Shown here piece by piece: positions 357-59,955 of a stretch of 59,955 nt of DNA; the first letter of the stretch is position 1; every line of letters begins with the position of its first letter. The translations under genes were made by a program, and so were the position numbers. The DNA comes from Phycisphaerae bacterium. Its GTDB lineage: Bacteria; Planctomycetota; Phycisphaerae; Phycisphaerales; Phycisphaeraceae. The notes beneath the pieces are model-generated. The model saw only the letters and a list, made by a program, of their open reading frames with translations. It was not told where the DNA came from and did not search any database. The stretch lies in contig JAUIGU010000024.1 of the NCBI GenBank assembly GCA_030432595.1, positions 1 through 59,955 on the forward strand. The letters run 5' to 3'.

Positions 357-3300
357 TCAGTTTCGAGGGCGACGCCGGAGTGCGAGCGACGTGAAAAGCC
401 AGAGCGCGGCGGCGGGTTCGGGGACGGTGCTGCCGGTGAAGTCGGGGGCGGTGGTGTCGCCCCAGTTGGTGAGGACGAGGTCGAGTTCGGTCTGTTCGAC
501 CTGGCCGTCGATATCGCCTCCGGGCAGGCCGGCGAAGTTGGTCCAGGCGGTGACGTCGGAGACGTCGGTGTCGCCCCAGTTCTGGAGGACGAAGTCGAGG
601 TCGGCCTGCTCGACCTGGCCGGAGTCGTTGTAGTCGCCGAAGACGGCACCGAGGGAGACGACTTCGAGGGCGACGCGGTTGGTTTCATAGAGGACGTCGA
701 AGCCCAGGCCCGCGGCGAGGGCGGGCAGGTCGAGCGTGTCGAAGGTGCCGGTGACGCCGGTGCCGGCGGTGATGAGTTCGTAGACGCTGCCGACAGTGAG
801 GGCGAGGGGGTCGTCGGTGGTGACGGCGAGGTTGCCGGCGACGGTGGCGGTGCCGGCGACGTCGAGGAGGTCGGCGGTGCCGGCCGTGGTCTCGATGCCC
901 AGGGCGAGCGTGCCTTCGGAACGCAGGTTGAGGTTGGAGACGGCGGAGGTGTTGACGACGGTGAGGTCGCCGAAGTTGTCGAGGGTGCCGGTGACGTCGG
1001 CGTCGATGAGGATGAGGTCGCCGTCGGGGTTGTTGACCAGGGCGACGTCGAAGGTTGCGTCGCCTTCGGCGATGACGAAGGTGCCGGAGTTGGCGCCGGT
1101 GGCGGCGGCGACGGAGCCGCGGGCGACGGAGACGACGCCGGTGGCGGTGACGAACAGGCCGTTGGAGATGGTGATGGCCTGGTTGTCGTCGACGGTGAGG
1201 GTGTTGCCGAAGATGCCGGCGGGGGTGACGACGACGCCCGAGTTGGTGAAGTTGAGGGTGCCGGCGTCGAAATCGACGTTGGCGAAGTCGGCGGCGGTGA
1301 TGGAGCCGAGGCTGAGCGTGCCGCCGTTGACGCGCAGGGGGGCGGTGAGAAAGGCTTCGCCGTCGACGGCGAGGTGTTTACCGGCGTCGAGGACGGCGGG
1401 GTTGCCGTTGAAGAGGTTGGACAGTGCGGCGGTGTCGAGGGTTTTGCCGGCGGGGTCGGTGAAGCGGAGCAGGCCGGCGTTGTAGTTGAGGGTGGGGACG
1501 GGGGTGTAGCTTGCGCCGCCGAAGTCGAGGAAGATGAGGTCGTTGGCGATGAGTTCGCCGCCGTTGAGATTGATGGTGCCGCGGTCTTTGAGGTAGAAGT
1601 TTCCGGCGACGTTGAGGCGGCCGTTTTCGAGGAGGTTGAGTTCGGAGGACCCGGAGCTCTGGCTGCCGGCGGAGGAGGCGTGGTTGGTGCTGCCGGACAT
1701 GATGAAGTCGTTGCCGACGTCCCAGGTGGCGAGCGCGCCCGGGCCGCCGAGGTCGACGCGTCCGACGTTGGTGGAGGCGCGGCCGATGTAGCCGAGGCCG
1801 CCGTTGGTGACGGTGCCGCCGTCGCGGATGATGAGCTGTCCGTCGACGCGGAGGTTGGAAGCGCCCGCGGCGACGGAGAGGTCGCCGCCGACGTTGAAGG
1901 TCGAGCCGGCACCTTCGACGGTCATGATGTTGTCGGCGTCGCCGGCGGCGCCGACCTCGGCGAACTCGGTGATGGTGATGTTGCCGCCGTCGCGGATGTT
2001 GACGATGCCGGAGGCGTTGGTCTGCTCGCCGAGGTTGAGGTAACGGGCCTCGACGCGGGAGCCGGCGCCGGTGACGTCGATCTGGCCGTTGCCGCCGGAT
2101 TCGTCGCCGACGATGAGGAAGCCCTGGGTGAGGATGTTGTTGCTTCCGTCGCGTTGGACGGCCTGGAGTACGCCGCCGTTGGAGACGATGAGTCGGGCGC
2201 GGTCGCCGTTGCTGCCGCCGGAGAGGCCGACGCTGACGCGTTCGGTGCCGAAGTAGTCGACGCGGGAGCCGGGGCCGTCGATGGTGAGGACGGAAGCGTC
2301 TGCCGCGGCACCGTTGCCGATGACGAGGCGGTCGGCGGAGCTGCCGCCGCCGTTGGTGGCGACGTTGATGCGTCCGCCGTTGGTGACGTTGGCGAAGCCG
2401 CGGTCGGAGTCGCCGACGAGCAGGCGGGTGGCGATGTTGAGGACCGAGCCGGGGCCGTCCACGTCGAGTTGGCTGTTGAACGAGCCGAGGGCGTCGGCGA
2501 CGAAGACGCCGTTGGCGTTGACGGTGCCGCCGTCCGTGACGTCGAGGTTCCCGGTGCCGATGTAGCCGACGAGGATGAGGTCGCCGTTGGCGTCGAACTG
2601 TGAGTTGGCGCCGGAGACGGTGAGGGTGCCGTTGGCGTTGGCGTCGTGCCCGATGATGACGCGGGAGGCCGAGATGCCGCGGCCGCCGTCGAGGATGTTG
2701 GCGGTGCCGGTGCCGCCGTTCTCGTTGCCCGAGCCGCCGATGAACCAGCCGCCGGTGGCGTTGGTGGTTTCGACGAGGGAGTTGTTGCCGGTGACGGTGA
2801 GGGTGCCGACGCCCTCGTCGTCGTCGCCGAGGGTGATGGTGTTGACCGCGGCGGTGACGCCGGTGCCGGCGCCCGCGCCGGTGAAGGTGGCGGTGGCGCC
2901 GTTCTGCACGGTGACGTTGGCGGTGGTGCCGACGCCGGTGCCGTTGCCGGCGAAGAGGAAGGCGGCGGTGAGGGTGGTGGTGCCGCCGTCGAGCAGGACC
3001 GTGCCGTCGGCGCCGTTGGCCAGGCCGACGTGGACCTCGTCGCCGACGGTGATGGTCGCGCCGTTGCGGGCCTCGAAGATGCCCTTGCCCTCGTTCCCGA
3101 CACTGAGGTCGCGGCCGATGTTGGCGGTGGCGTTCATGCCGCTGACGACGACGGTGTTGTCGCCGTTGTTGCCGATCTCGTCGGCGATGAAGAGGTCGAC
3201 ATCGACCTGGAGCTGGCCGAAGCCGACTTCGTTATCGTTGAGGTCGCGGCCGATGTTGAGGAAGCCCAGGCCGGCGTCGCCGACGATGAGAGAGTTGTCG

Positions 3301-4496: not shown

Positions 4497-4747
4497 GGCG
4501 TTGCTCGTCTTCCTCTCAAGATGTCGCCGACACCGGCGCGGTCGGGCAGAACGCCCTACGGACACGGGATACGCCCGGGCCTGCTCCCCACGGCCAGATG
4601 AATTGGACCGCAAAACCCGCACCGACGCAAGGAAAAAGCCCGATCCCGCGGCTTTTCCAAGCCGGTCCGTGCGGGCAAGACCGGCCCCGGGAAGCTGGGG
4701 CGTGGCCGGCACGCACTGTCTCGCGTGTTGGCCCGCGGGTTGGAAAG

Positions 4748-5830
4748 ATGGGGAACCGTGCCCGCGTGGCCGACCTCGGCGTAACCTCGCCGTACGCTGT
4801 AGAGCGACCCGCCGTGAAAAAGCCCCCGCGCCCAGACCCGAACCCCGCCGAGGCCGACGCCGCGCCGATCGAGCCAATCGAGCGATCCGCGCCGCCCGAG
4901 CCGCTGATCCCCGGCGCGTCCAAGGTCTCCTCCGCCATCGCCCGCGCGGTGCTGCGCGGCGGGAACTACCCCTGGCTCAAGATCGCCGGGGCCCGCGTCC
5001 GCGAGAAGTCCCGCCGGCGCGGCGGCCGGCGCTTCGTCGTCCGTCGGCCCGACGGCGTCACGCTCGACGCCTGGCTCTCGCCCCGTGACGCCGGCACCGG
5101 GCTCGACGGCGGCACGCGCTCCCGCATCCCCGTGGTCATCTGCCACGGCATCTTCGAGTTCAAGGAACGACACTTCGACCGCGCCGCCTGGCTCAACGAA
5201 CGCGGGCACGACGTCATCCTCTTCGACCACCGCACCCACGGCCGATCCACCGGCAAACGCCTGACCTTCGGCGTCCACGAACGCGAAGACGTCCGCGCCG
5301 TGATCGACCTCGCCGTCACCCGCGGCATGGTCCCCCCCGGAAGTGGGCACAATGACCTTCCCCAAGTCGTCACGCTCGGGTTCTCACTCGGCGGCGGCAC
5401 GGTCCTTCAACACGCCGCGACCGACGAACGCGTCGCCGGCGTGATTGCGCTCGCGCCGTTCTGCGACTTCCGTACGGCGGTCAACACGTTCCGGCTGTGC
5501 TTCACGCCGTGGATGGACGAGGCCTGGCTGCAGCGCGGCTTCGACACCGCCGCCGCCGAGGCCGGCTTCGAAATGGAGCAGGCCTCCGCGCTCGACGCCA
5601 TCGAACACATCGACGCGCCCATCCTCCTGGCCGAAGGCGGCAAAGACCCGTTCCTCCCGCCGGGCATCCATAGCGAACAGTTGAAGCGCCGCCGCGGCGA
5701 CAACCGCTTAACGGTGATTCGCGTGGACGACGCGCACCACGTCTCCCTCGTGCGCCGCCGCTGGCCGCAACTGGATGATGCGATCGCGGTGTTTCTGGAC
5801 CAGCTGGAAACCACCGATGGACACGGGTGA
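4748..5830 (+). CDS. Alpha/beta hydrolase
   Basis: 360 aa from the ATG at 4748. The fold is shown by VVICHGIFEFKERHF (oxyanion region), FDHRTHGRS, the nucleophile elbow GFSLGGG, the acid-loop region LLAEGGKDPFLPP and the late histidine in DDAHHVSL, so Ser, Asp and His are all present. It resembles the cytosolic alpha/beta hydrolases related to YheT-type esterases; the substrate is unknown. No signal peptide is visible. A GTG at 4814 (VKKPPRP) is an equally good start because the ATG has no well-spaced ribosome site. The last codons (TTDGHG and the stop) lie inside a dispersed repeat, so the C-terminus has probably been rewritten. It is divergent from the repeat protein upstream. Confidence 0.82.
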   Translation: MGNRARVADLGVTSPYAVERPAVKKPPRPDPNPAEADAAPIEPIERSAPPEPLIPGASKVSSAIARAVLRGGNYPWLKIAGARVREKSRRRGGRRFVVRRPDGVTLDAWLSPRDAGTGLDGGTRSRIPVVICHGIFEFKERHFDRAAWLNERGHDVILFDHRTHGRSTGKRLTFGVHEREDVRAVIDLAVTRGMVPPGSGHNDLPQVVTLGFSLGGGTVLQHAATDERVAGVIALAPFCDFRTAVNTFRLCFTPWMDEAWLQRGFDTAAAEAGFEMEQASALDAIEHIDAPILLAEGGKDPFLPPGIHSEQLKRRRGDNRLTVIRVDDAHHVSLVRRRWPQLDDAIAVFLDQLETTDGHG

Positions 5831-7971: not shown

Positions 7972-10071
7972 ATGCGGCGTTTGGGTTTGAGTTGCGCGTC
8001 GTGGGCACCGGTGGCGGTCGGCCTGATCGTCGGGCGGGCGGCGGCGGTCACCTTCACCGACGTCACCAACGCCGCCTTCCTCATCCACACGCAGTCGTCG
8101 TTGCCGGTCGATCCGGGCCTGGCGGGCGTGGAGTACTTCTCCGGCGGGGTGGCGGCGGGCGACTTCGACGGCGACGGGTGGACCGACCTGGTCTTCACCC
8201 GCCTGGGCGCGGCCGACGTCTTCTACCACAACAACGGCAACGGCACGTTCGATCCGCGCACCTTCCTCGCCGGCTTCAACGACGCGACGTACACCAGCGG
8301 CGTGGTGTCCGGCGACGTCGACAACGACGGCGACCTGGACCTCTACATCACGGGCACCGCCAACGCGACCCGCAACTACCTCTACCTCAACGACGGCAAC
8401 GGCTTCTTCACCGACGCGGGCACCGCCAACCCCGTCGCCCAGGCCACCGGCGTGCCGCGCGCCGGGCAGGGCGCGAGCTTCGGCGACGTCAACCACGACG
8501 GCTACCTCGACCTGCTCACCTCCGACTGGGGCAACGGCGTCGCGTCCAGCCAGTCGGCGCTGCTCATCAACCGCGGCGCGTCCGACCCGGGCGTCTTCGA
8601 TGACGCCACCGCCGCCGCCGGTCTGGACGTGTACCGCGAAGACATCGCCTACCGCTTCTCCCCGCGCTTCGTCGACCTGGACCGCGACGGGCACCTCGAC
8701 GTCACCTTCGCGTCCGACTTCGAGACCAGCCAGCTGTTCTGGAACAACGGCGACGGCACGTTCACCGACGGCACGCTGCCCGCCGGCGTCGGCACGGACT
8801 ACAACGGCATGGGCACCACCTTCGCCGACTACGACCGCGACGGCGACCTTGACTGGTTCATCACCAACATCACCCAGGACCCCGAGCACCCCGGTCCCTT
8901 CGGCGGGTTCAACCGCCTGTACCGCAACGACGGCAACCGCCAGTTCACCGACGTCACCCTCGAAGCCGGCGTGCGCGATTCGCGCTGGGCCTGGGGCACC
9001 AGCTTCTTCGAGGCCGACAACGACGGCGACGTCGACCTCATCGCCACCAACGGGTTCAACGGCGACGGCTGGATCGACGACCGCACCTACTTCTGGACCA
9101 ACGACAACGGCGTGTTCACCGACGTGTCCGACGCCGCGGGCATCACCGACACCCAGCAGGGCCGCGGCCTGATCCACCTGGACTACGACCAGGACGGCGA
9201 CCTCGACATCGTCATCGTCAACAACGGCGAAGAACCCATCCTTTACCGCAACAACACCATCGAGTCCGGCGACACCAACGACTACCTCCGCATCCACACC
9301 GAAGGCACCGAGTCCAACCCGCACGGCATCGGCGCGTTCATCACCGTCACGCCCGACCTGGACAACCCGCAGGACCGCCAGGTCTGGGAGATCGACGGCG
9401 GCAGCAGCTTCCTCAGCCAGAACGAACACACCGCCCACTTCGGGCTGGGCGAGCTCGGCGGCGACGGCGAGACCGTGGACCTCGTGACGATCCAGTGGGA
9501 CCGCGGCATCGTGCAGCACCTGCACGGCGTGACCGCGAACCAGACGCTCACGGTCGTCGAAACCGACGTGCCCGCCGCGCCCGGCGACATCAACTTCGAC
9601 GGCAGCGTCGACGCCGACGACATCGACTGGCTGCGCCTCGCGCTCCAAGACGCCGCGCTCTACGCCGCGGTGTTCGGCATGCCGACGCACGACGCGTGCG
9701 ACCTCACCGGCGACGACGGCGCGAACGCCGGCGACGTCGACTACCTCGTGCAGACGATCCTGGGTTCACTCCAAGGCGACGCAAACCTCAGCGGCCAGGT
9801 CGAACAAGGCGACCTCGACGCCGTGCTGCAGAACTGGGGAAGCACGCAGGGCGTGGGCTGGGCCACCGGCGACCTGAATGGTTCCGGGCAGGTCGAACAG
9901 GGGGATCTGGATCTGGTGCTGCAGAACTGGGGGAGCGCGGCCGCGCCGGACTTCGGCGGCGCGAGCCTTCCGGGGGTGCCCGAGCCGGCGACGCTGGGCG
10001 TGTTTGGCTTGGCGCTGGCGGCGCGCCGCCGCCGGCCTCGTGTCCGGAAGTCGGTGGGGCCGTGCCGATAA
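7972..10071 (+). CDS. FG-GAP/VCBS repeat protein with ASPIC/UnbV domain, four dockerin-like loops and PEP-CTERM tail
   Basis: 699 aa from the ATG at 7972; an earlier in-frame start at 7921 would bury the signal peptide (MRRLGLSCASW...GRAAA, about 25 residues). The body is a series of FG-GAP/VCBS repeats with calcium-loop signatures such as DFDGDGWTD, DVDNDGDLD, DYDRDGDLD and DYDQDGDLD, expected to form a beta-propeller. It is followed by an ASPIC/UnbV-like stretch (FGLGELGG...VTIQWDRG). Next come one canonical dockerin-like pair (GDINFDGSVDADDID, DLTGDDGANAGDVD) and then two variant loops (GQVEQGDLDAVLQNWG, GQVEQGDLDLVLQNWG). The end is VPEPATLGVFGLALAA plus an Arg-rich tail. Exported, probably surface-bound; ligand unknown. 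Confidence 0.88.
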   Translation: MRRLGLSCASWAPVAVGLIVGRAAAVTFTDVTNAAFLIHTQSSLPVDPGLAGVEYFSGGVAAGDFDGDGWTDLVFTRLGAADVFYHNNGNGTFDPRTFLAGFNDATYTSGVVSGDVDNDGDLDLYITGTANATRNYLYLNDGNGFFTDAGTANPVAQATGVPRAGQGASFGDVNHDGYLDLLTSDWGNGVASSQSALLINRGASDPGVFDDATAAAGLDVYREDIAYRFSPRFVDLDRDGHLDVTFASDFETSQLFWNNGDGTFTDGTLPAGVGTDYNGMGTTFADYDRDGDLDWFITNITQDPEHPGPFGGFNRLYRNDGNRQFTDVTLEAGVRDSRWAWGTSFFEADNDGDVDLIATNGFNGDGWIDDRTYFWTNDNGVFTDVSDAAGITDTQQGRGLIHLDYDQDGDLDIVIVNNGEEPILYRNNTIESGDTNDYLRIHTEGTESNPHGIGAFITVTPDLDNPQDRQVWEIDGGSSFLSQNEHTAHFGLGELGGDGETVDLVTIQWDRGIVQHLHGVTANQTLTVVETDVPAAPGDINFDGSVDADDIDWLRLALQDAALYAAVFGMPTHDACDLTGDDGANAGDVDYLVQTILGSLQGDANLSGQVEQGDLDAVLQNWGSTQGVGWATGDLNGSGQVEQGDLDLVLQNWGSAAAPDFGGASLPGVPEPATLGVFGLALAARRRRPRVRKSVGPCR

Positions 10072-11399
10072 TCCCGCACTTTGTCGCTGCGCTCGTTCTG
10101 ACCGGAGTTGCGGCGGGCGTCGCGCGGGCCACGCCCACGGGGTTGATCACGCTCGACCCGGACATGGCGCACGAAACCAGCGGCGTCTTTGTCGATGCCG
10201 AGACCGCGTACCTCTCCACCGACACCGGCGTCTGGACCGTGACCGATACAGGTTCGACGTTTACGCCGATTGTGCATCCGACGTTCGGGCCAGCTTTTTT
10301 CTTGTCGGCACCAGTGAAAGGCTCAGATGGGGATGTCTATATAGGTGGCGTATCTCTTAACTTTACATTTGAAGAAACGTCGGCTTTGTTTCGCCTACTT
10401 ACTTCTGATAATCCGGTTGTAGATTGGGGAAACCCCGGTTCGTCAAGCACGATAGTCCGTGCATTCGACAGCAATTTGGACGGTTATGGAACAGTATCCG
10501 GTGCGTTTGCAGCAAAGTTCTTTTTTGACACTAGCATCACTGCCCTCCCTTCTCCACCGGGTTTTTCAGGCGGAAGTGTTTTGGACACCTCATTGTCCGG
10601 GGTAGCAGTTGGGCTTAATTCACGCCCGGGAACCACGGCTGCACCTGCGATCTGGAAGGATTCCGGACTCTCCTTTCTTGATCCCGCTTTGAATGGCTCG
10701 ATCTTCTCCGTTCGCGACAGCACCGAAGGCTCGCTCAACTTCGGTGCCGTCCTCGAGGACCAGGCGTACGTGCAGTTGGGCGCCCGCCCGCTCACGCCGA
10801 TCGTGGACGAGCTCGGCGACCCGCTGCTGGCCGACGAGGTGTTCGTCGCCGAGACGAACGTCGCGCTGATCAATCCGCGCAGCGGCGTCAACGGCGAGGT
10901 CCACGTCTACTACCCCGGCATCACGGCGACGCCCGGGCAGGCGTTGCCGTTGTCGTCGGTGTTCCCGTCGTTGTCGGGCACGTCGTTCAGTTCGGCCGGT
11001 CGGCCCGCGGCGGACGGCGGGTTGGTGTACCTGCCGCTGGACGACGGCGTGCACCTGTTCGTCGCGGCCGACCCGAGCCTGGCGTTCGGCCTCGGCGACT
11101 ACAACGCGTCGGGTCAGGTGGAGCAGGGCGACTTGGACCTCGTGCTGCAGAACTGGGGGCTGGACACGGATACGGCCGGCGTCCCTTCGGGCTGGCTACA
11201 CGACCTGCCTTTGGGCCTGATTGAGCAGGCCGAACTGGATCGGGTATTGCTGAACTGGGGCAGCAGTGCGACGCCGGACTTTGGCGGGTTTGGCTTTCCG
11301 GGGTTGCCCGAACCGTCGGCCGTGTCGGTGGTGGGGATCGGGCTGGTTCGTTTGCCGCATCGGCGGCGCAATAGGGCGCGCCCGGGTTGCGCGGCCTGA
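10062..11399 (+). CDS. Exported protein with dockerin-like module and PEP-CTERM-like tail
   Basis: 445 aa from a GTG at 10062, preceded by GGTGGGG and overlapping the previous gene by 10 nt, so the two are likely translationally coupled. The first 23 residues (ending GVARA) are a signal peptide. The middle has no family I recognise, though short repeats such as ETAYLSTDTGVWTVTDTG suggest a beta-propeller-like fold. Two dockerin-like loops follow (GDYNASGQVEQGDLD and GLIEQAELDRVLLNWG), then LPEP, a weak hydrophobic stretch and a basic end. The interior 10290-10720 is markedly AT-richer than both ends, with codon use unlike its neighbours; this points to a transferred or recombined segment. Confidence 0.75.
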   Translation: MPIIPHFVAALVLTGVAAGVARATPTGLITLDPDMAHETSGVFVDAETAYLSTDTGVWTVTDTGSTFTPIVHPTFGPAFFLSAPVKGSDGDVYIGGVSLNFTFEETSALFRLLTSDNPVVDWGNPGSSSTIVRAFDSNLDGYGTVSGAFAAKFFFDTSITALPSPPGFSGGSVLDTSLSGVAVGLNSRPGTTAAPAIWKDSGLSFLDPALNGSIFSVRDSTEGSLNFGAVLEDQAYVQLGARPLTPIVDELGDPLLADEVFVAETNVALINPRSGVNGEVHVYYPGITATPGQALPLSSVFPSLSGTSFSSAGRPAADGGLVYLPLDDGVHLFVAADPSLAFGLGDYNASGQVEQGDLDLVLQNWGLDTDTAGVPSGWLHDLPLGLIEQAELDRVLLNWGSSATPDFGGFGFPGLPEPSAVSVVGIGLVRLPHRRRNRARPGCAA

Positions 11400-11520: not shown

Positions 11521-13404
11521 ATGGGACGCCGGGAAAGATGGTCGCGCGAGGGGGCGGTGGTTCGGGGCGTGTGGGGGTTGGCGGCGGTCGCCGCGGTGAC
11601 CCCGACCGGGTCGGCGGGGACGTTCGTGGAGCTTGCGCGGACGGGCGACCCCGAGCCGGGCGCGACGAGCGGGGCGGTGATCGCGGAAGGTTTGGCGACG
11701 CCCCTGCTGGGAGACGACGGCACGGCCGTGTTCGGCGCGGACTTTCGCATCAACGGGTTTGCGGACGGCGCGGGGTTGTTGTTCACCGATCCGGCGTCGC
11801 CGGGCGGGGCGTTGACGCTGGTGCTGCGCTCGCCGGACCCGACGCCCAACGTGGACGGGAACTACCAGGCACCTTTCCTGCCTAGTGCGCTGCCGGACGG
11901 CGACATCCTTTCCGGCGCGTTCATCCAGAGTTCACTGATCGCCAATGGGCTGTACGGCTTGTATCGCGTGGACGGTCACGCGTCGGCGACGACGGGCGCG
12001 ACGGCGGAGCTTGCGCGGTCGGGTTCCACGACGACGGCGCAGGGCGGGTCGTTATTCCAGATCGCGTTTTCGGGGTTGAGTGCGCCGCAGCAGGTGGCGT
12101 CGGGGAACGTGTACGCGTTCGGGGCGGTGCTGGGCGGTACGCTGCCGGGCGCGACGACGTTGCGGATCACGCCGGGCGGCACGGTGGAGCAGGTGTTCAC
12201 CAGCGGCGAGTCGCTGGCGGCGTTCCCCGGGCAGTTGGTGACGGGCGTGCCACGCATGCCGCAGGTCAACGACCAGGACACATTGGCGCTGTACGGGCGC
12301 ATCCTCGACTCGACCGGCAGCGGCACGATCAACACCGGCAACGACGAGGGCATCCTGCTGCGCACCGATGCCGACGGCCTGCACCGCGTGGTGATCGAAG
12401 GGCAGGCGGAGCCGGGCGGCAATGGGGCGTTCGGCAACGCGCCGGCCGTGGCGTTCGGGCAGGTGTTCACGGACCCGACGCTGAACAATCGAGGCGACCT
12501 CGCGTTCGCGGCACAGCTCACCGGGACGTCGGGCGGCTCGCTCGATGACGACGGCGTGTTCCGACGCAACGCGGACGGCAGCCTCGACACGCTGGTGCGG
12601 GGCGGCGACTTCGCGCCCGGCGGCGACGGCCGGTTCACGAACCTGTTGCAGGAGGGCTTCGAGCGCACGGTGATCAACGACCGCGGCAGCGTGGCCTTCT
12701 TTGCCGGACTCTCGGGGGCCAGCGGCGGCTCCACGTCGGGCGTCTTCCTGCACACCGATGTCGGCGGCCTTGATGAGGTGACCCGGCTGGGCGCGGCGGT
12801 CCCCGACGGCACCGGCACGATCAGTTTCCTCGACAACTTCGCGTTCAACGACCGCGACGAGCTCGCGTTCCTGGCCGTGATCGACACCGGCGGGTTCGGC
12901 ACGGAGACGGCGCTGCTGCGCTACAGCCCGATGTCGGGCCTGGAAACGCTGGTGCGGCAGGGCGACGCGCTGGCGGGCGGGACGGTGTCCGACCTTCGGT
13001 TTGAGGCGACCGCGCTGTCCGAGGGGAGCGACCGCGACGGGCTGAACAACGCCGGGCAGATCGCGTTTCAGGCGGTGATCGCCGGGCAGTTCGTCAACCT
13101 GCTGTGGTCCCCGGACCTGATCCCCGGCGACTACAACGGCAGCGGCCAGGTTGAACAAGGCGACCTCGACCTCGTGCTCCAGAACTGGGGCGACGACACC
13201 GACGCCAACGGCGCGCCCACGGGTTGGACCAATGACCTGCCGCAAGGCCTGATCGATCAGGCGGAACTCGACGGCGTGCTGTTGAACTGGGGTGACACGG
13301 CGTTGCCGGATTTGAACGGGTCGGCGGCCGTCCCCGAGCCCGTCGCATTGAGTCTCTGGGCGGCCGCGGCGGCGTGGGGGGGCCGCCCGCGCCGGCTTCG
13401 TTAA
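11521..13404 (+). CDS. Exported DUF7453-like repeat protein with dockerin-like module and PEP-CTERM tail
   Basis: 627 aa. The ATG at 11521 has a strong AGGAGG site and a signal peptide of about 33 residues. The body repeats motifs such as LNNRGDLAFAAQLTG, INDRGSVAFFAGLSG, FNDRDELAFLAVI and LNNAGQIAFQAVI, separated by VFRRNADGSLDTLVRGGD-type strands. This is the choice-of-anchor repeat pattern I associate with DUF7453, of unknown function. The C-terminus has GDYNGSGQVEQGDLDLVLQ and then NDLPQGLIDQAELDGVLLNW, VPEPVALSLW and an Arg-rich end. From about 13218 onward the DNA is nearly identical to the end of the next gene although the bodies are unrelated. Confidence 0.85.
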   Translation: MGRRERWSREGAVVRGVWGLAAVAAVTPTGSAGTFVELARTGDPEPGATSGAVIAEGLATPLLGDDGTAVFGADFRINGFADGAGLLFTDPASPGGALTLVLRSPDPTPNVDGNYQAPFLPSALPDGDILSGAFIQSSLIANGLYGLYRVDGHASATTGATAELARSGSTTTAQGGSLFQIAFSGLSAPQQVASGNVYAFGAVLGGTLPGATTLRITPGGTVEQVFTSGESLAAFPGQLVTGVPRMPQVNDQDTLALYGRILDSTGSGTINTGNDEGILLRTDADGLHRVVIEGQAEPGGNGAFGNAPAVAFGQVFTDPTLNNRGDLAFAAQLTGTSGGSLDDDGVFRRNADGSLDTLVRGGDFAPGGDGRFTNLLQEGFERTVINDRGSVAFFAGLSGASGGSTSGVFLHTDVGGLDEVTRLGAAVPDGTGTISFLDNFAFNDRDELAFLAVIDTGGFGTETALLRYSPMSGLETLVRQGDALAGGTVSDLRFEATALSEGSDRDGLNNAGQIAFQAVIAGQFVNLLWSPDLIPGDYNGSGQVEQGDLDLVLQNWGDDTDANGAPTGWTNDLPQGLIDQAELDGVLLNWGDTALPDLNGSAAVPEPVALSLWAAAAAWGGRPRRLR

Positions 13405-16500: not shown

Positions 16501-16857
16501 CTGGACTGGCAGCTCAGCCCCGGCGGCGCAACACTCTTCTTGAACGTCGTGGCCACTGCAAGCCTCCTGGGCGACTACAACGACTCGGGCCAGGTCGAGC
16601 AGGGCGACCTCGACCTCGTGCTGCAGAACTGGGGCCTCGACACCGACGCCAACGGCGTGCCCACGGGTTGGACCAATGACCTGCCGCAAGGCCTGATCGA
16701 TCAGGCGGAACTCGACGGCGTGCTGCTCAACTGGGGCGACACGGCCGCGCCGGATTTGAACGGGTCCGCAGCCGTCCCCGAGCCCGTCGGAGTGTGGTTC
16801 GTCGCGAGCGGTTGGGGGCTGCTGCGTCGGCGATTGCGCCGGGTTCGGGCGGGGTGA
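13567..16857 (+). CDS. Exported T5SS/PEP-CTERM-type repeat protein with dockerin-like module
   Basis: 1096 aa. The ATG at 13567 follows AAGGAGGGGAGG, the best ribosome site in the cluster. The signal peptide is about 26 residues, ending WARGQ. The N-terminus of the mature protein (TWFGPDDGLWSDAPNW) is the strand that commonly opens autotransporter-type beta-helix passengers. Many GxLTVSNLGS, GTVNIEAGGTVNV and GTVTVRDGGRI repeats follow. A late segment (NAGSLAIEIGGTTPG...DRVEVAGFATLLGTLDV) is the usual capping region of such passengers. Then come the dockerin-like pair (GDYNDSGQVEQGDLD, GLIDQAELDGVLLNWG), VPEPVGVWFVASGWGLL and RRRLRR. There is no translocator barrel, so a PEP-CTERM route is inferred rather than autotransport. 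Confidence 0.86.
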   Translation: MRHIALNRWLWGWCVVVLVVVPWARGQNRTWFGPDDGLWSDAPNWLPANVPDTNTENATFGGGVGGVVFNGGFVINEFRESGGHHTFYADGPTAAPTLSVAGDAIIARSGLGTSLTLAQTVSGTAAVNLDVAGELGVYGDGAFHLADGAEADAATFGLGNRSTGDGEASVDGSGSNLTISGSAEIGAQTSTGTLTVSNLGSAVFLNGLDVVTGTNTDSSAVINVQSGGGVFASGDVNLGTGTGTDQTTTLTVTGVNGPSPSFFTHTGSGALTFGNASAPQNTLVDINDGAVFQTGNGQVTVAGGGEVRVSNATLQVFGDLTVNGRVDLQVGSVFELAAGRDLTLTGGGDFLADTDVTMNGGRLVRGVGTSSFELADGRTYFANGVDVDLSGVYTLNGGATFDIRNASTLSASMSIGLNSDGTLIVDGVGTSMTSFPFANQWGTGAAADVTFRNFAVANLGFVDMAESAVAGTVANLNIESNADVTVSTLNLATQGGSTTAGRIDITGGGDLTQTGAATLNVGHAFQGSAEIRIDGPGSTFTTGTGNITVNTTGLIEALNDGVFEANGNVVLNGGTLRTATTTGPDAGTFTLADGKNLTATNDAQIELPGFSILDQDWNIQNGSDLRVRELNLVVGNRREGTLTVDGIDGTDTSVVVDAFGLVVGVSSLSQPGQGTVTVRDGGRIDLDDPVGGSLQIATDNADGTVGTVNIEAGGTVNVASTVSVAILGGANTIGILDVRDGGTLTQTGSGLFRLGQVGGGTQARVNLFNGGVVSTGTGAVTLEQDAELNLNGGPNFGDTPGVFIANGPMTVRGQVNVPQFDGVVTDPGGRLVVNAGMTIDAGYVQMYKGAIEADAITLTNGGTFDFTGGTLTVDTFTGTLDQEGGTLAPGDSPGVTTISGDYLFNAGSLAIEIGGTTPGAQHDRVEVAGFATLLGTLDVTLINGFTPTLGDSFAFLFANGGFNAGFSALNLPDLSGQGLDWQLSPGGATLFLNVVATASLLGDYNDSGQVEQGDLDLVLQNWGLDTDANGVPTGWTNDLPQGLIDQAELDGVLLNWGDTAAPDLNGSAAVPEPVGVWFVASGWGLLRRRLRRVRAG

Positions 16858-21017: not shown

Positions 21018-24000
21018 ATGAGCGTTCGACATGACGGCGGGGCGGTTCGGGCGTCGGTTTGGTCGGCGGTCGCGTGCGCGGCGGTGGTGGGCGGCTTCGT
21101 CGCTCCGTCGGCCAAGGCGCAGAAGGCGTTCTTCTCGTTCGAGGGCGAGGTGGTCACGGCCGGCGACCAGTTCGACTTCGACATCAACCTGAGCCGCGCC
21201 GTCGACAACACACAGCCGTTGGCGTTTCAGACGTTCCTGCACGGCGGCGGGACCAACGCGGCGGGCGACACGTTCACGCCGCCGGGCGTTGCGCCGTTCG
21301 CCATCGACCCGGATCTGCGTCTGTTCGACAGCGTGCCCAACGAGATCGCGCGCAACGACGACGGCAACCAGGGTGTGACCGGTTTCGATTCGCTGCTGTC
21401 GTGGGCGGGCGTCGCGCCCAACCCCAACGGCGGCACGCCGATCCCCTCGCCCCTCGCGGCCGGGGACTACGCGGTGAACCTCCAGGAACTGGGCAACGAC
21501 AACACCGGGGTGTGGGCGCTGGACCTGGTCGGCCCGGCCGACGCGCTGTCGCTCTCGGGCGTCACCGCCGCCGGCCCCGCGACCGGCGTGATCTCGTCGC
21601 TGAAGTTCGGCACGATCGACACCGGCATGGGCGTCGCGCCGGCGGTGCTCAACAACGCGACCGACCTCACCCTCGCCGGGCCGCTCGTCGTCGGGCAGTC
21701 GGGGCAGGCCGTGTTCAACCACATCGGCGGCACGCTGACGCTGGAGGATTTCTCGCGCGTCGGCGGCTCCGGGCTGGGCGTCGGCACGATGAACATCGAC
21801 GCCGCGGTGAACATGGCCGGCTTCGCGACCCTGCAGGCCGGCGGTTTCGGGCCCAACAGCGACGGCACCATCAACCTCAACAGCGGCGGCACCTTCACCG
21901 GATCGATCGGTGCCCAGGACACCGGCACCCTCAACGTCAACGCCGGCGGCGTCCTCCACGCCACCTCGACGCTCGTCCTCAACGAGGGCGACCTCAACCT
22001 CGCCGGCGCCGGCATCCTCACTTTCGCCGCCGACACCGGCATGAACGCCATCGACGGCGCCGCCGTGGACTTCGCGCAGTCTTACAACATCGACAACGGC
22101 ACGACCTTCCTGTTCAGCGGCGCCGCAACGTTCACCGGCAACAGCTACATCGACGTCGGCAGCGGCTCGGACGGCACACTGACCATCAGTGGTCAGGACA
22201 CCGTGTTTACCACCAACACGGACCTTGCCACCCACATCGACTGGGGCATCGGCGGGGGCACCGCCAGCATCAACGTGTCCAATCTCGCGCACGCCGACTT
22301 CCGCGCCGCGCGCATCGACTTGGCCAACGACGGCGACGCCGGCTCCACCGCCACGCTGAACGTGATCTCCGCCGCGACCGTCACCACCAACAACCTCGCC
22401 CTCGCGGACGGCACCGCCGCAGGCACCGCCGGCATCACCGTCTCCGGCAACCCCACGGGCTTCGGGCCCGCCACCCTCACCCAGAACGGCGCGTCCACCC
22501 TCGTCATCGGCGGCACCGGCACCGGCTCCGCGTCCGTCACCGTCTCGACCGGCGGCGTCTTCAACACCGGCACCGGCGGCACCGACGTCCACGGCAACGG
22601 CGAGCTCCTCGTGCTGGGCGCACAGTTCAACGGCAACGGCGACGTCACCTTTCACCCCGACGCCGAGCTCGTGGTGAACGCCGGCACGGCCACCGTCGTG
22701 GGCACGCTCGCCTTCGACCAGAACACCAAAGCCACGCTGTCCAACGGCTGGACCCTCGAGGCCGACGCCGTCGACTTCCTGGGCTACGGCGGGTTCGGCA
22801 GCAGCTCCCAGAGCATCAACGGCTCCTCCGACGGCCGGCTCCGCGTCAACCGCATCCGTAACACCGACATCGGCAGCGGCACCACCGGCTTCCACGGCAC
22901 CCTCGCCCTTGGCGTCGACCTGCCCGGCACCGGCGAGTCCGCCGCCACCCACACCGTCTCGGAAGGCAAGCTCTTCGAAGTCCGCGTCAACCTCGTCGTC
23001 GGCCACACCGCCGACGCCGCCTTCAACGTCACCGCCGGCTCCTTCGGCCCCGCCACCACCAACGTCACCCTCGGCGACCTCATCGTCGGCCAGTTCCCCC
23101 CGCCCCCGCCGATCACCACCGGCGACATCGCGCCGCTGCTGTCCACCGGCGCGACCGGCACCGTCACCCTCACCGGCGACAACGCCAGCGGCAACGAAGC
23201 CACCCTCAACATCGGCGGCGACCTCGACCTGCGCAACGGCACCGTCACCCTTAACGACGACAGCACCCTCACCGCCGCCGCGGGCACTGTCGGCGCGATG
23301 GGCACACTCGAAATGGTGCCCACCGATGTCCCCGGCTTCGGCATTGCACAGTTCACCGGCGACCTCACCATCGAAAACGGCGGAACCCTCGCCGGCAAGA
23401 CAAACCTCCAGGCCGTCACCGTCCACAACCACGGCACCGTCCGCCCCGAACACTTCGTCGACAGCGTCGGCAACGGATTCCTCATGTCCCTCGACGCCGA
23501 CTTCGTCCAATACGCCGACGGCCGGATCGAGATCGGCACCGCCAGCGACGCCACCGCCATCCCCAAAGTCTTCGACTACCTCGAAGCGCTCGACGCCACC
23601 GTCACCGGCCAACTCGCCTTCACGTCCACCGACCCGCTCAACGACTACAGCGCCTTCACCGCCTACGCCTTCGAAGAATCCCTGATCCTCGCCGACTCCG
23701 TGTCCGGCGTGTTCACCACCGTAACCGGCCACGTCCTCTCCGACGACACCGCGCTGGCCGTGCTCTACGACGGCTTCGGCGTCAACGTCCAGCGCGTGCT
23801 CTTCGGCGACGCCAACCTCTCCGGCCAGATCGAACAGGCCGACCTCGACGCCGTGCTCCAGAACTGGGGCAAGACCTCGACCACCGACGGCATCTCCTGG
23901 GTCACCGGCGACTACAACGGCAACGGCCAGGTCGAGCAGGGCGACCTCGATGCCGTGCTCCAGAACTGGGGCGACCAACTCAACGCGCCGGACTTCACCG

Positions 24001-24216: not shown

Positions 24217-27186
24217 ATGTGCACGTTCAAAGCAGGGCGGAAACCGCTCGGGGCATACCCGGCGGTGGGTGTTGCGTTGGCGGTGGGCCTGGGCATCGCC
24301 GGCGACGTTTGCGGGCAGACGTTCTTCTGGACCGCCGGCACCGGCGACTGGAGCAACGCCGGCAACTGGTCGGACCCGGGCTTCAACGACTACCCACGCT
24401 TCGCCAGCGACGCGGCCGTGCTTAACGGGCCCAACCTCCTCGCGTACCTGACCGAAACCATCAACATCGGCCGGCTCGAGATCCGCGACCGTGCGGACGT
24501 GCAGAACGGGCTCGTCTCTCTGCACCGCCTCGACGTGCTCGGCGAGACGCTGCTCGACGGCCCGGCCCCGACGCTGCGCATCTTCGACTCGCTCGCGTCC
24601 GTCGACTTCCAGACCGACACGCTCACGCTCAACAGCACGGGCACCGGCACCGACGGCGGCCTGATCCTCAGCCAGGGCGCCGTCGCCCAGGTCGACGTCG
24701 CCGCCATCATCACCGGCGGCATCGGGCTGCGCGGCGACGGCACGCTGCTGATGAACACCACCGGCGGCAGCCTCGACAACAGCGGGACGATCTTCGTCGA
24801 CGACGGCGACACCCTCCGCCTCGCGGGCACGGCCGGCAACACCGGCGTCTTCGACTGGGACGGCACCAGCGGGTCCGGCGTCATCGACATCCGCAACGGC
24901 GCGACGCTCGACATCGACCTGCCCCAGGGCAACGACGCCTTCGGCGGCACCATCCTCATGCGCGACGGTGCGGAGATGAGCAACGTCGTGCCCTGGACGC
25001 TGGACACCACCGGCGTGATCCGCACCGCCAACAACGTGTTCGGATTCGACGACGGGAGAATCCGCGGCACGGGCAGGATCACCAGCCGGGGCTGGCTTGA
25101 CGCGACCGACGGCGCGCTGAGCTTCGACCCCGAGCTCGAGGTGACGGGCGGCCGGGTCACGATCGGCTCGCCCACGGTGATGGGCATCCTCGGCGTGTCC
25201 GACGGCATCATCCGGCCGGCCGCGACCGTCGAGTTCGTCAACGGCAACTTCGCCGTCGGGACTAACGACACGTTCACCATCGACCAGACCGGCAAGCTCT
25301 TCGACTGGGACGGCAACAACGGCGCGATCGCCACCGTGATCAACGGTGGATCCGACCTGACCATCATCGCCAGCACTATCAACCCCAACACCGGCGCGTC
25401 CACCACCAACCGCTACGCCGGGTTCATCCGCCTCGACGGCAATCTCGCCGTCACCGGCATCGGGCCGGACCTGCTGATCGCCAAGACGACCGGCGGGCTC
25501 GGCGACGCGACCGTCACGATGCTCGGCCAGACCGACCCGGCCGACTACCCGACCTACGACGGCGTGCCCATCGTCTTCGGCGGCAGCAGCACCTTCCGGA
25601 TGGTGCCGGTCGGGGCCAGCGCGACCCGGTTCGGGCAGTTCAACGCCCCGGCGAGCTTCGACGGCGGCACGGTCGAGCTCAACCCCAACACCGGCGTCCT
25701 CTTCAACGACCGCGTCGATTTCCGCTCGAACACGATCAACTTCGTCGGCGGCGCCGACGGGACGCTGCGCTTCGCCGACGAGTTCTACGCGAACACCACG
25801 TCGCTCACCATCCCGTTCGCCACCGAGTTCGCCGACGCCAGCCAGACCACCGTCGTCCCCGCCACCGCGCTCAACCTCAACGGGCCCGTCACCCTCGAGG
25901 GCGGCGACTTCTTCGGAGGGCCCGGACGCACCGTCAACCTCAACGGCCCGATCACCGTCTCCCCGCTGGGCGACACGCTGGTCAACCTCGCGAACTTCAA
26001 TTTCAACGGCCCAACCACGTTTCAGGGCGGCGACTTCATCACCCCGCCCGGCACCGTCTTCAACTTCAACAACACCGTCACCGCCGCCGCCGGCTTCACC
26101 CAGGTCACCGTCGACGTGATCAACCTCGACGGCGCCGGCGCCACGCAGATCAACGTCAACCCCGGCGCCGTCCTCGAACTCGACGCTACACGTCTCGACG
26201 AACCGGCCGACCCCTTCGACGGCGGACTCTTCGTCGGCGGCACGCTCAACGTCCGCACCGACGCCGGCCTTTGGGAAAGCCGCGGCGTCGTCACCCTCAC
26301 CAACGGTACGCTCAACGGCCCCGACCGCTTCCGCAACCTCGGCACCCTCAAAGCCAACGGCACCTCCACCCTCAACGCCCCCGTCACCCTCGCCAACGGC
26401 TCGACCAACCACATCAACGGCACACTCAACCTCACCGGCCCCGAGTCGAAGTTCATCGAAGACACCGCCGCGTTCACCGGCGCCGGCACGATCGCCAATA
26501 ACGGGAACGGGTTCCTTGTCCTCGACGACGTCAACACCGGCACCGTCTCCCTCCGCAACGCCGGCCCGCTCGAACTGGGCGACATCTCCGCCGACCCCGA
26601 CATCATCACCGTCCACGCCTTCACCCAGACCGCCGCCGGCACGCTCTTCATCGACCTGCGCGGCACCGCTTCGGCGAACTACGACCGCATCCAGAACAAC
26701 GCCGGCGCCTCCATCGACGGGGCTTTACGCGTCTTCCTCGGCGGCGGCTTTTCCCCGAGCCTGGGCGACAGCTTCGCCGTCGTCAGCGGCGGCACCCGCA
26801 CCGGCCAGTTCGCCAACGCCACGCTGCCGGCGCTCGGGCCCAACCGCGTCTGGGAGATCCGCTACCTCAGCAACCGCGTCGATCTTGCCGTTGTGGCCGG
26901 CATCGCCGGCGACTACAACGACTCCGGCCAGGTCGAGCAGGGCGACCTCGACCTCGTCCTCACCAACTGGGGCAGCGACGTGCGCGTCACGGGTGTCCCG
27001 GCGCTGTGGATCAACGACCTGCCCGTCGGGTTCATCGAACAGACCGAACTGGACAAGGTGTTGATCAACTGGGGCAGCACCACCGCGCCCGACTTCCGCG
27101 GGCTGACCAACGTGCCCGAGCCGGGGGCGGGTCTCGTCTTGGTGCTGTTAACGAACGTGGTCTGCTGTCGCCATCGCCATGTCTGA
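24217..27186 (+). CDS. Exported autotransporter-passenger-like protein with dockerin-like module and PEP-CTERM tail
   Basis: 989 aa. The ATG at 24217 has GAGGAG seven bases upstream. The signal peptide is about 33 residues, ending DVCGQ. The mature start (FFWTAGTGDWSNAGNWSDPG) is the typical first rung of beta-strand-repeat passengers. The centre contains strands such as NGPVTLEGGDFFGGPG, NGPITVSPLGDT and NGPTTFQGGDFITPPG, in tandem with a period of roughly 35 residues. A capping segment (TLFIDLRGTASANYDRIQ...GALRVFLGGGFSPSLGDSF) resembles the cap of the gene at 13567. The end has GDYNDSGQVEQGDLDLVLTN, GFIEQTELDKVLINWG, VPEPGAGLVLVLLTNVV and a short CCRHRHV tail. Confidence 0.85.
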   Translation: MCTFKAGRKPLGAYPAVGVALAVGLGIAGDVCGQTFFWTAGTGDWSNAGNWSDPGFNDYPRFASDAAVLNGPNLLAYLTETINIGRLEIRDRADVQNGLVSLHRLDVLGETLLDGPAPTLRIFDSLASVDFQTDTLTLNSTGTGTDGGLILSQGAVAQVDVAAIITGGIGLRGDGTLLMNTTGGSLDNSGTIFVDDGDTLRLAGTAGNTGVFDWDGTSGSGVIDIRNGATLDIDLPQGNDAFGGTILMRDGAEMSNVVPWTLDTTGVIRTANNVFGFDDGRIRGTGRITSRGWLDATDGALSFDPELEVTGGRVTIGSPTVMGILGVSDGIIRPAATVEFVNGNFAVGTNDTFTIDQTGKLFDWDGNNGAIATVINGGSDLTIIASTINPNTGASTTNRYAGFIRLDGNLAVTGIGPDLLIAKTTGGLGDATVTMLGQTDPADYPTYDGVPIVFGGSSTFRMVPVGASATRFGQFNAPASFDGGTVELNPNTGVLFNDRVDFRSNTINFVGGADGTLRFADEFYANTTSLTIPFATEFADASQTTVVPATALNLNGPVTLEGGDFFGGPGRTVNLNGPITVSPLGDTLVNLANFNFNGPTTFQGGDFITPPGTVFNFNNTVTAAAGFTQVTVDVINLDGAGATQINVNPGAVLELDATRLDEPADPFDGGLFVGGTLNVRTDAGLWESRGVVTLTNGTLNGPDRFRNLGTLKANGTSTLNAPVTLANGSTNHINGTLNLTGPESKFIEDTAAFTGAGTIANNGNGFLVLDDVNTGTVSLRNAGPLELGDISADPDIITVHAFTQTAAGTLFIDLRGTASANYDRIQNNAGASIDGALRVFLGGGFSPSLGDSFAVVSGGTRTGQFANATLPALGPNRVWEIRYLSNRVDLAVVAGIAGDYNDSGQVEQGDLDLVLTNWGSDVRVTGVPALWINDLPVGFIEQTELDKVLINWGSTTAPDFRGLTNVPEPGAGLVLVLLTNVVCCRHRHV

Positions 27187-55920: not shown

Positions 55921-57834
<1,914 letters not shown>

Positions 57835-58465: not shown

Positions 58466-58675
58466 GGCCGGCCAGTGTCGTCGGGGCAGCGCGGCGATTC
58501 AAGGGCGTGAGGTGAGTTTTTTGTCCGTCAAATTGGGGTTTGTCCGGGGGGCTAAGCGCGCCTAAGGTCCGTTCGGTTTTCTCGATCAGACGGCCGCCCT
58601 CGACGGCAGAATCAGATACAGTCTCGATGACGTTCCCCGGGACCTTAATAACCACATTTTATGGAGGCAGGCGAG

Positions 58676-59955
58676 ATGAAAGATCCACGCAAGGGTACGG
58701 TTTCGCGCGAGGTTCGGTTCGAGACGCTGGAGCAGCGGGTGCTGCTTTCAGCGGACACCAACGCGGTTCTGCTGGGCGACTACAACGGATCCGGTCAAGT
58801 TGAGCAGGGCGATCTTGACCTCGTTTTAAGCAATTGGGGGCGTGACTTCGTCGAGGAGAACACCGCAGTACCGGCGGCCTGGGTCGTCGATCTGCCGACG
58901 GACCAGATCGAGCAGCGGGAACTGGACGCGGTGCTGCAGTTCTGGGGCCAGTCCGTGGCGCCCGACGCCGGGGACGGTAGGGTCTTGCCCCTGACCAGCG
59001 GCGAGTTCGTCCCGGCGATCCTCGGGTCGTCCAGCGATGTCGATACGTACTCCATCGACATGCAGGCCGGGGACGACCTGTTGGTGACGATCCGTGAGTT
59101 CGGCAACAACTTCACGACGATGGAAGCGACCCTCTTCGGGCCGGATAATCGCGCGGTGGAACGTGTGACATTCAACACCGGCGGTGACGTCGACCAAGTC
59201 TCCGTCACGCAAACCGGGACTTACAAGCTAGTGGTGCGCGACCCGGGCGGATCGGGTTCCGGCGCGTACCGGCTGACCGCGGTGGTGATAGACGACACCG
59301 TCGATGCCGGCAACGAAGTTCTCGACAGCGGCGAGACCTTCATCGGCACACTTAACTCCGGGGACATCGATACGTTTACCGTCGACGCGAACGTCGGCGA
59401 CGACCTGTTGTTCACCGTTCGTGAAAACGGCAACAATTTTACAACGATGGACATTTCGCTCTACGGCCCCGACGCCCAACTGATCCAGGCCGCCGAGTTC
59501 AACACCGGTGGCCGGCTCGACCGGTTCAACCTCACCCAGAGCGGGACCTACACCTACGTCGTTCGCGACAAAGAACGGACAGACACGGGGAGCTACCTCG
59601 TGACCGCGGTCGTGATCGACAACGTGATCGACACGGACAACACCGCACTGACCAGCGGCCGCACCTTAATCGCAAGCCTCGGCTCCTCGGATATCGACAC
59701 CTACACCATCGACGCCCAAGCCGGCGACGACCTGTTGTTCACCGTGCGCGAGGACGGCAACAACTTCACGACAATGGAGGTCTCGCTGTACGGTCCCGAC
59801 GCCGCCCTGATCGAGACCACCGAGTTCAGCACCGGCGGCCGGCTCGACCGGTTCAACCTCTCCCAGAGCGGGACCTACACCCTCGTCGTCAGAGACGAAG
59901 ACGGGTTCAACACCGGGCAGTACGTGGTCACCGGTGTGGTGATCGACTCTACGCC
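58676..59955 (+). CDS. LEPR-XLL surface protein with dockerin-like module and tandem 109-aa repeats (partial)
   Basis: The start is the ATG at 58676, with GGAGG upstream; the gene runs off the right edge with at least 426 aa. Residues 15-27 (RFETLEQRVLLSA) are a LEPR-XLL motif, found at the N-terminus of very large surface proteins in Planctomycetota and others. Directly after it comes the two-loop dockerin-like module otherwise seen at the C-terminus of the secreted proteins (GDYNGSGQVEQGDLDLVLSN; QIEQRELDAVLQFWG). Then come at least three tandem repeats of exactly 327 bp (109 aa), each with DTYxIDxQAGDDLLFTVRE, LYGPDA and QSGTYTLVVRD. They resemble bacterial pre-peptidase C-terminal (PPC) beta-sandwich domains. 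Confidence 0.85.
   Translation, partial: MKDPRKGTVSREVRFETLEQRVLLSADTNAVLLGDYNGSGQVEQGDLDLVLSNWGRDFVEENTAVPAAWVVDLPTDQIEQRELDAVLQFWGQSVAPDAGDGRVLPLTSGEFVPAILGSSSDVDTYSIDMQAGDDLLVTIREFGNNFTTMEATLFGPDNRAVERVTFNTGGDVDQVSVTQTGTYKLVVRDPGGSGSGAYRLTAVVIDDTVDAGNEVLDSGETFIGTLNSGDIDTFTVDANVGDDLLFTVRENGNNFTTMDISLYGPDAQLIQAAEFNTGGRLDRFNLTQSGTYTYVVRDKERTDTGSYLVTAVVIDNVIDTDNTALTSGRTLIASLGSSDIDTYTIDAQAGDDLLFTVREDGNNFTTMEVSLYGPDAALIETTEFSTGGRLDRFNLSQSGTYTLVVRDEDGFNTGQYVVTGVVIDST

Follow-up and report, generated by a model that had tools for sequence, protein, structure and literature searches.

Two alternative classes of putatively exported protein in a Phycisphaerae genome share one type of dockerin-like module, and the explanation we favour, at somewhat better than even, is that this module is a genome-specific docking tag by which both classes would be held by one putative receptor. 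The module precedes PEP-CTERM-like tails in most of the proteins sampled and stands behind LEPR-XLL, a putative sorting or export signal, in others. The parts are known, and the link between the signals and the genome-specific module type are undescribed within the open-licence literature searched, where no description was found of dockerin together with PEP-CTERM, and also none with planctomycetes, and where the literature naming LEPR-XLL appears unrelated by title. The window (the whole stretch of DNA analysed, 59,955 bases) is one entire contig, C42, of a genome (G000) of 4,386,089 bases in 73 contigs, and the gene that gave rise to the analysis lies at its end.

The window gene, its module and its likely C-terminal end

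The order of parts in the window gene is LEPR-XLL, then the dockerin-like module, then PPC-type repeats. Counted from ATG 58676, the LEPR-XLL motif lies within the first 30 residues, and nine residues separate its last leucine from the start of the module. The first-pass annotation had placed a dockerin-like module close behind LEPR-XLL in this gene, and the profile matches to both parts bear this out. The features are:

58663..58667, plus strand: Shine-Dalgarno-like GGAGG, eight bases 5' of ATG 58676
58676..59955, plus strand: window gene, starting at ATG 58676, 426 codons present, frame open to the contig end
58715..58762, plus strand: LEPR-XLL motif match, RFETLEQRVLLSADTN (NF012209 26.6 bits, cut-off 17; 30.3 bits in the genome scan)
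58769..58966, plus strand: dockerin-like module of two repeats (A1 profile, which itself includes this copy, 110.3 bits, E 1.8e-31; Dockerin_1 12.6 bits, under the 22.9 cut-off)
58775..58840, plus strand: module repeat 1, GDYNGSGQVEQGDLDLVLSNWG, with a complete EF-hand-like loop (sequence, alignment)
58889..58948, plus strand: module repeat 2, DLPTDQIEQRELDAVLQFWG, with a shortened loop (sequence, alignment)
58970..59955, plus strand: tandem PPC-type repeats, approximate boundaries (PF04151 39.7 bits, cut-off 25.9, three stretches; further repeats on contig C62)

The families nearest to the module are dockerins, and by its sequence it would be classed as divergent dockerin-like. PF00404 (Dockerin_1) matched 6 of 11 module copies at E <= 10 (best E 4.2e-6), and all of seven sequences comprising relatives and consensus types, four of them above the cut-off and one, a gene of G289, at 53.6 bits. 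Against solved structures, the module profile matched dockerin 2y3n (E 0.011) over nearly its full length; it also matched a portion of 2jnk (E 0.0048), and weak matches to calmodulin ranked below both. A predicted structure of the module was too weak a model to use (mean pLDDT 56). As in type I dockerins, there are two repeats, each an EF-hand-like loop with a helix. Unlike them, the window copy scores under the cut-off, has a shortened second loop, lacks a cohesin found to go with it and is tied to two sorting signals. In the alignment of the window genome's module type the first loop is complete and the second is the shortened one; in the window module the latter has probably lost its calcium ligands.

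A match to the T9SS type A sorting domain (TIGR04183, 31.6 bits, cut-off 23) at window 59423-59587 was set aside because it falls inside the PPC repeats, at residues 255-309 when numbered from 58661, and is not C-terminal. The upstream gene at window 55921-57834 resembles, by eye, a type II secretion or type IV pilus ATPase.

The rest of the window gene, including its C end, is very probably held on contig C62 (6,251 bases). The end of C62 is 90% identical to the window end over 453 bases, and this contig is the sole other place in the genome where the gene's PPC repeat family was found. The likely C end there is a Q/R-rich stretch, and a PEP-CTERM-like tail, looked for at this end, was absent. 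The full gene, which the first-pass annotation had seen only up to the contig edge, is recovered in this sense as far as a likely C end, through a join that we infer. The break (59829-59955 and C62, locus L010) falls within near-identical PPC repeats, and therefore the assembly may have lost or merged one repeat; the number of PPC repeats in the gene is uncertain.

LEPR-XLL proteins and the relatives of the window gene

In a survey of the window genome and 20 relatives, NF012209 gave 66 matches at E <= 0.01 in 15 of the 21 genomes. Of the 66 frames, 55 have 500-2,500 residues, with a median of 1,072, and the expectation that LEPR-XLL proteins are usually giant did not hold here. A module was detected anywhere in the frame (A1 profile, domain E < 0.01) in 14 of the 66, namely 6 of 10 in G000, 3 of 6 in the same-genus G001, 5 of 13 in G009 and 0 of 37 in the remaining 12 genomes. 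The same profile and threshold gave no module in the other 52 frames across the 15 genomes; some of the other frames, such as L030, L069 and L096, hold weaker dockerin-like stretches. In three of the 66, the distance from the start of the motif match to that of the module is 16 to 19 residues: the window gene, C69:93426-94982 with two modules in tandem, and L088 of G009, a weak case (E 0.035). In 9 of the 14 module-bearing frames it instead lies hundreds of residues past the motif. The first-pass wording of a module moved to the N-terminus thus names one option out of two. L034 and L104, orthologue-like by eye, each carry a half module some 100 residues past the motif. By simple arithmetic (about 150 copies in 4.39 Mb), some 0.02 in-frame modules would be expected by chance within 100 residues behind 12 LEPR matches, as against two modules, plus the half module at +98, observed in the window genome.

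The arrangement is found in several genes, as the first-pass annotation had proposed to survey: in a second gene of the same genome, in other genera and in three genes of another family. A homologue of the window gene in G766, which belongs to another genus, has LEPR-XLL (22.7 bits, cut-off 17), a dockerin-like pair and PPC repeats that are 46-55% identical to those of the window. A homologue search of 51 family genomes at E <= 1e-10 gave matches only in G000, G001 and G766. Those in G001 were to modules only, and the best 34 of 193 candidates there included no homologue of the window gene. The expectation that sister species would hold the orthologue with its module is borne out across genera, by G766, and not in the same-genus G001. 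In G289, of another family, three genes, which were found because they have the feature, carry LEPR-XLL (17.6 to 24.6 bits) followed directly by dockerin-like pairs:

L154/L208: G289 gene with LEPR-XLL and a dockerin-like pair
L211/L274: G289 gene with LEPR-XLL and a dockerin-like pair
L217/L275: G289 gene with LEPR-XLL and a dockerin-like pair

Farther out, LEPR-XLL was matched at E <= 0.001 in 8 of 149 phylum genomes, and the roughly 130 residues behind the motif were without a module in all six of the seven new loci that were inspected, which counts against generality. A combined profile of LEPR-XLL and module, scored on the best 14 candidates in each of 397 class genomes and not sensitive outside the family, matched mostly through its module part. 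A shorter version, equally insensitive outside the family and applied to the best 18 candidates in each of 392 phylum genomes at E <= 1e-6, was spanned in both parts only in the window genome. Dockerin-like stretches probably stand behind LEPR-XLL in Pirellulales as well. Compared with the LEPR-XLL domain as modelled by NF012209, the window motif is typical in scoring above the cut-off and lying near the N end; it is unlike in being followed immediately by a dockerin-like module and in belonging to a middle-sized protein.

Of the 12 closed LEPR-XLL frames in G009, nine show a late C-terminal pattern resembling LLGLWE; with two set aside that resemble another family, L068, L071, L072, L074, L079, L086 and L103 remain. 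The pattern was picked post hoc. Shuffled tails would be expected to give about 0.3 cases, and it was seen in 0 of 65 control frames and 1 of 50 LEPR-XLL frames from other genomes. In the genus of G009, LEPR-XLL may have a C-terminal partner in this pattern.

One module beside two signals

A dockerin-like module stands immediately before a PEP-CTERM-like tail in eight window genes, and seven copies from such genes are 55-66% identical to the module of the window gene. The copies used for comparison are:

441..644, minus strand: module copy before a PEP-CTERM-like tail
9769..9951, plus strand: module copy before a PEP-CTERM tail (PF07589 20.8 bits, cut-off 20.7)
11091..11279, plus strand: module copy before a PEP-CTERM-like tail
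13120..13311, plus strand: module copy before a PEP-CTERM-like tail
16564..16755, plus strand: module copy before a PEP-CTERM-like tail
23799..23993, plus strand: module copy before a PEP-CTERM-like tail (PF07589 16.7 bits, under cut-off)
26902..27093, plus strand: module copy before a PEP-CTERM-like tail

The PEP-CTERM-like module gene at window 360-4976 (minus strand) also contains 11 stretches of the T5SS/PEP-CTERM-associated repeat TIGR04393 (152.4 bits).

Tails were called by pattern and reading, from a PEP motif, a hydrophobic stretch and a basic end. All three were present by rule in 94 of 97 tails in G000, 37 of 38 in G766, 8 of 8 in G279 and 32 of 34 in G009, where one of the 34 (L094) was dropped afterwards. 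We name these tails PEP-CTERM-like because the curated models rarely reach them: PF07589 at E <= 0.1 recognises two of the eight window genes, with one just above the cut-off, and TIGR02595 recognises one, under its cut-off. The resemblance to PEP-CTERM/exosortase sorting (PF07589, TIGR02595), as set out in Haft 2006 (PMC1569441), lies in the window genome's two exosortases and in its sampled module frames, 97 of 104 of which end in such a tail. The differences are that the window gene's likely C end is without such a tail and that most module-linked tails are missed by the curated models.

The 201 module frames sampled across four family genomes comprised 176 with a PEP-CTERM-like tail, 18 with LEPR-XLL, none with both, four with neither and three unclassified. 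By genome these were 104 in G000 (97 PEP-CTERM-like, 7 LEPR-XLL), 46 in G766 (38 PEP-CTERM-like, 3 LEPR-XLL, 2 neither, 3 unclassified), 42 in G009 (33 PEP-CTERM-like, 7 LEPR-XLL, 2 neither) and 9 in G279 (8 PEP-CTERM-like, 1 LEPR-XLL). The zero overlap has a nominal chance below 1e-20, although this is qualified by relatedness among the sequences and by non-random sampling, mostly of top-scoring module places with LEPR-XLL loci deliberately added in G000 and G009. Four frames (L307, L336, L330, L232) were reassigned by hand to the PEP-CTERM-like class because a module boundary or contig edge hid the tail. L094, a 117-residue frame, has half a module but lacks such a tail and was moved from that class to neither. 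Among the LEPR-XLL frames, L039 (13.5 bits) and L321 (15.4) were counted despite the cut-off of 17, the other 16 being above it; L034 in the sample has half a module only. The first-pass idea that the module links two signals normally described separately agrees with these counts and with a module type that is mostly common to both signals within a genome.

The broader claim, that the module unites the whole exported set, fails on both sides. In 289,381 bases of the window genome (18 stretches, many of them chosen for holding modules), 12 of 54 PEP-CTERM-like tails, found with a tail profile trained on module-bearing proteins, had no detected module, as had the 52 LEPR-XLL frames above. The tail pattern occurred in none of 62 closed LEPR-XLL frames. 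Two LEPR-XLL loci, L031 (G000) and L107 (G001), have a late hydrophobic stretch and basic residues with the PEP motif absent; in the frame of L107 this is a helix and basic end scoring 13.5 bits on the tail profile. L317 and L331 (G766) and L320 (G009) end in the module without a PEP-CTERM-like tail or LEPR-XLL, and L317 and L320 have, by eye, an apparent N-terminal signal peptide. By a crude measure, 5 of 66 LEPR-XLL frames have a strong hydrophobic stretch close to the motif. Among PEP-CTERM-like frames such a stretch lies close to the start in 54 of 88 in G000, 20 of 24 in G009 and 20 of 32 in G766, a contrast in line with two export routes.

Module type by genome and what it may mean

Four profiles, each built from the PEP-CTERM-side modules of one genome, were scored against the LEPR-side modules, and in the clear cases the own-genome profile was the highest. 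The window module scored 99.0 with its own-genome profile versus 26.0, 3.3 and 43.0 with the others, and that of the G766 homologue 101.6 bits versus 8.0 (window genome's profile), 4.8 and 24.1. The N-terminal module of L088 was less distinct (58.3 versus 48.5), and L069 (G009) matches no type. A tree built from 73 modules required 5 changes for the genome labels (minimum 4) and 16 for the signal labels. The modules of G000 formed one group (98% support) and those of G766 another (94); the G009 group was unsupported, the G279 modules did not form one group (4 changes) and many forks were unresolved. This suggests that module type is mostly set by genome and not by signal. With the best 150 candidates scored in each genome, at least 152 A1-type matches were counted in the window genome and at least 158 in the same-genus G001, and 0 to 3 in seven other genera of the family. 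With a mixed-type profile the counts were at least 125 for G766, 105 for G009, 57 for G279 and 39 for G289. At least three loci of Phycisphaera sp. isolate IP29b_bin.17 have the same module type among the matches listed; no LEPR-XLL was seen in frames from two of these three.

It is unlikely, in our assessment, that the module serves passively as a folding cap or as a spacer close to a terminus, with no receptor and with its genome-wide type reflecting general constraint. Its position within 70 residues of the C end in 176 frames would suit such a role, as would the failure to find a cohesin with PF00963 in the window genome and six relatives. However, a spacer would have no need of one type per genome, and the types are strongly different even between G766 and G279, which are placed in one genus.

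Less likely still is a uniform type produced by duplication and gene conversion among module copies without any shared function. The large number of profile matches in the window genome, some of them clustered (contig C7), favours copying, as does third-position identity slightly above expectation, more so in G009. Yet four-fold third-position agreement in the window genome is barely above the prediction from base use (0.552, expected 0.519), with 0.573 (0.537) in G766 and 0.523 (0.423) in G009, and in the core repeat 0.3% of its module pairs are more than 95% identical at the DNA level. Median residue identity in the core repeat is 0.86 in G000, 0.83 in G766 and 0.82 in G009, values raised by the choice of core repeats by residue pattern. 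Synonymous sites are near saturation and recent copying therefore does not explain the uniform type, which is better explained by selection, least clearly in G009. The least likely alternative is that the module belongs to the sorting step, with the exosortase or the machinery of LEPR-XLL recognising it: it precedes the tail in 176 frames, and in the window gene, L033, L088 and the G766 homologue it follows LEPR-XLL directly, but each signal also occurs without it and it is hundreds of residues from the motif in most module-bearing LEPR-XLL frames.

Under the docking-tag explanation, one export class would have a signal peptide and a PEP-CTERM-like tail handled by exosortase, and the other a LEPR-XLL head that would itself direct export. 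Many proteins of both classes would carry the tag, at either protein end, with the window gene having it directly behind LEPR-XLL. One genome-specific putative receptor, at the cell surface or in the matrix, would hold the tagged proteins, possibly with calcium bound by the module. The sharing of one module type across signals suggests such a common receptor. PF00963 found no cohesin in the window genome at E <= 10, a search that would miss a divergent one, and in six relatives a single match at E 0.85, none being above the cut-off; the receptor would therefore be of another family or too divergent. The missing cohesin counts against the docking-tag reading, as do the shortened second loop, the module-less tails and LEPR-XLL frames, the four frames with neither signal, the few curated PEP-CTERM matches and the exceptions in G279, G009 and L069. 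The 'planctosome' proposed for freshwater Planctomycetes (PMC6461901) has cohesin and dockerin modules; it is similar in having planctomycete dockerin modules outside cellulosomes, and differs in its cohesins, of which none was found here. A parallel for the genome-specific type may be the species-specific cohesin-dockerin pairing in clostridia named by a title in the reference list of PMC11557425.

More tentatively, and with somewhat less than even confidence, these observations may point to a docking system of the planctomycete envelope, whose single dockerin-like code, specific to the genome, is carried by about a hundred or more proteins of two alternative export classes and switches wholesale between species while each gene keeps its signal. 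If the docking-tag reading is correct, a large set of surface proteins would share one receptor, and LEPR-XLL would stand beside PEP-CTERM as an alternative head for part of the tagged set. Because the docking code differs between species, the receptor could then be sought directly, and the genome-specific module type would permit a clean binding test.
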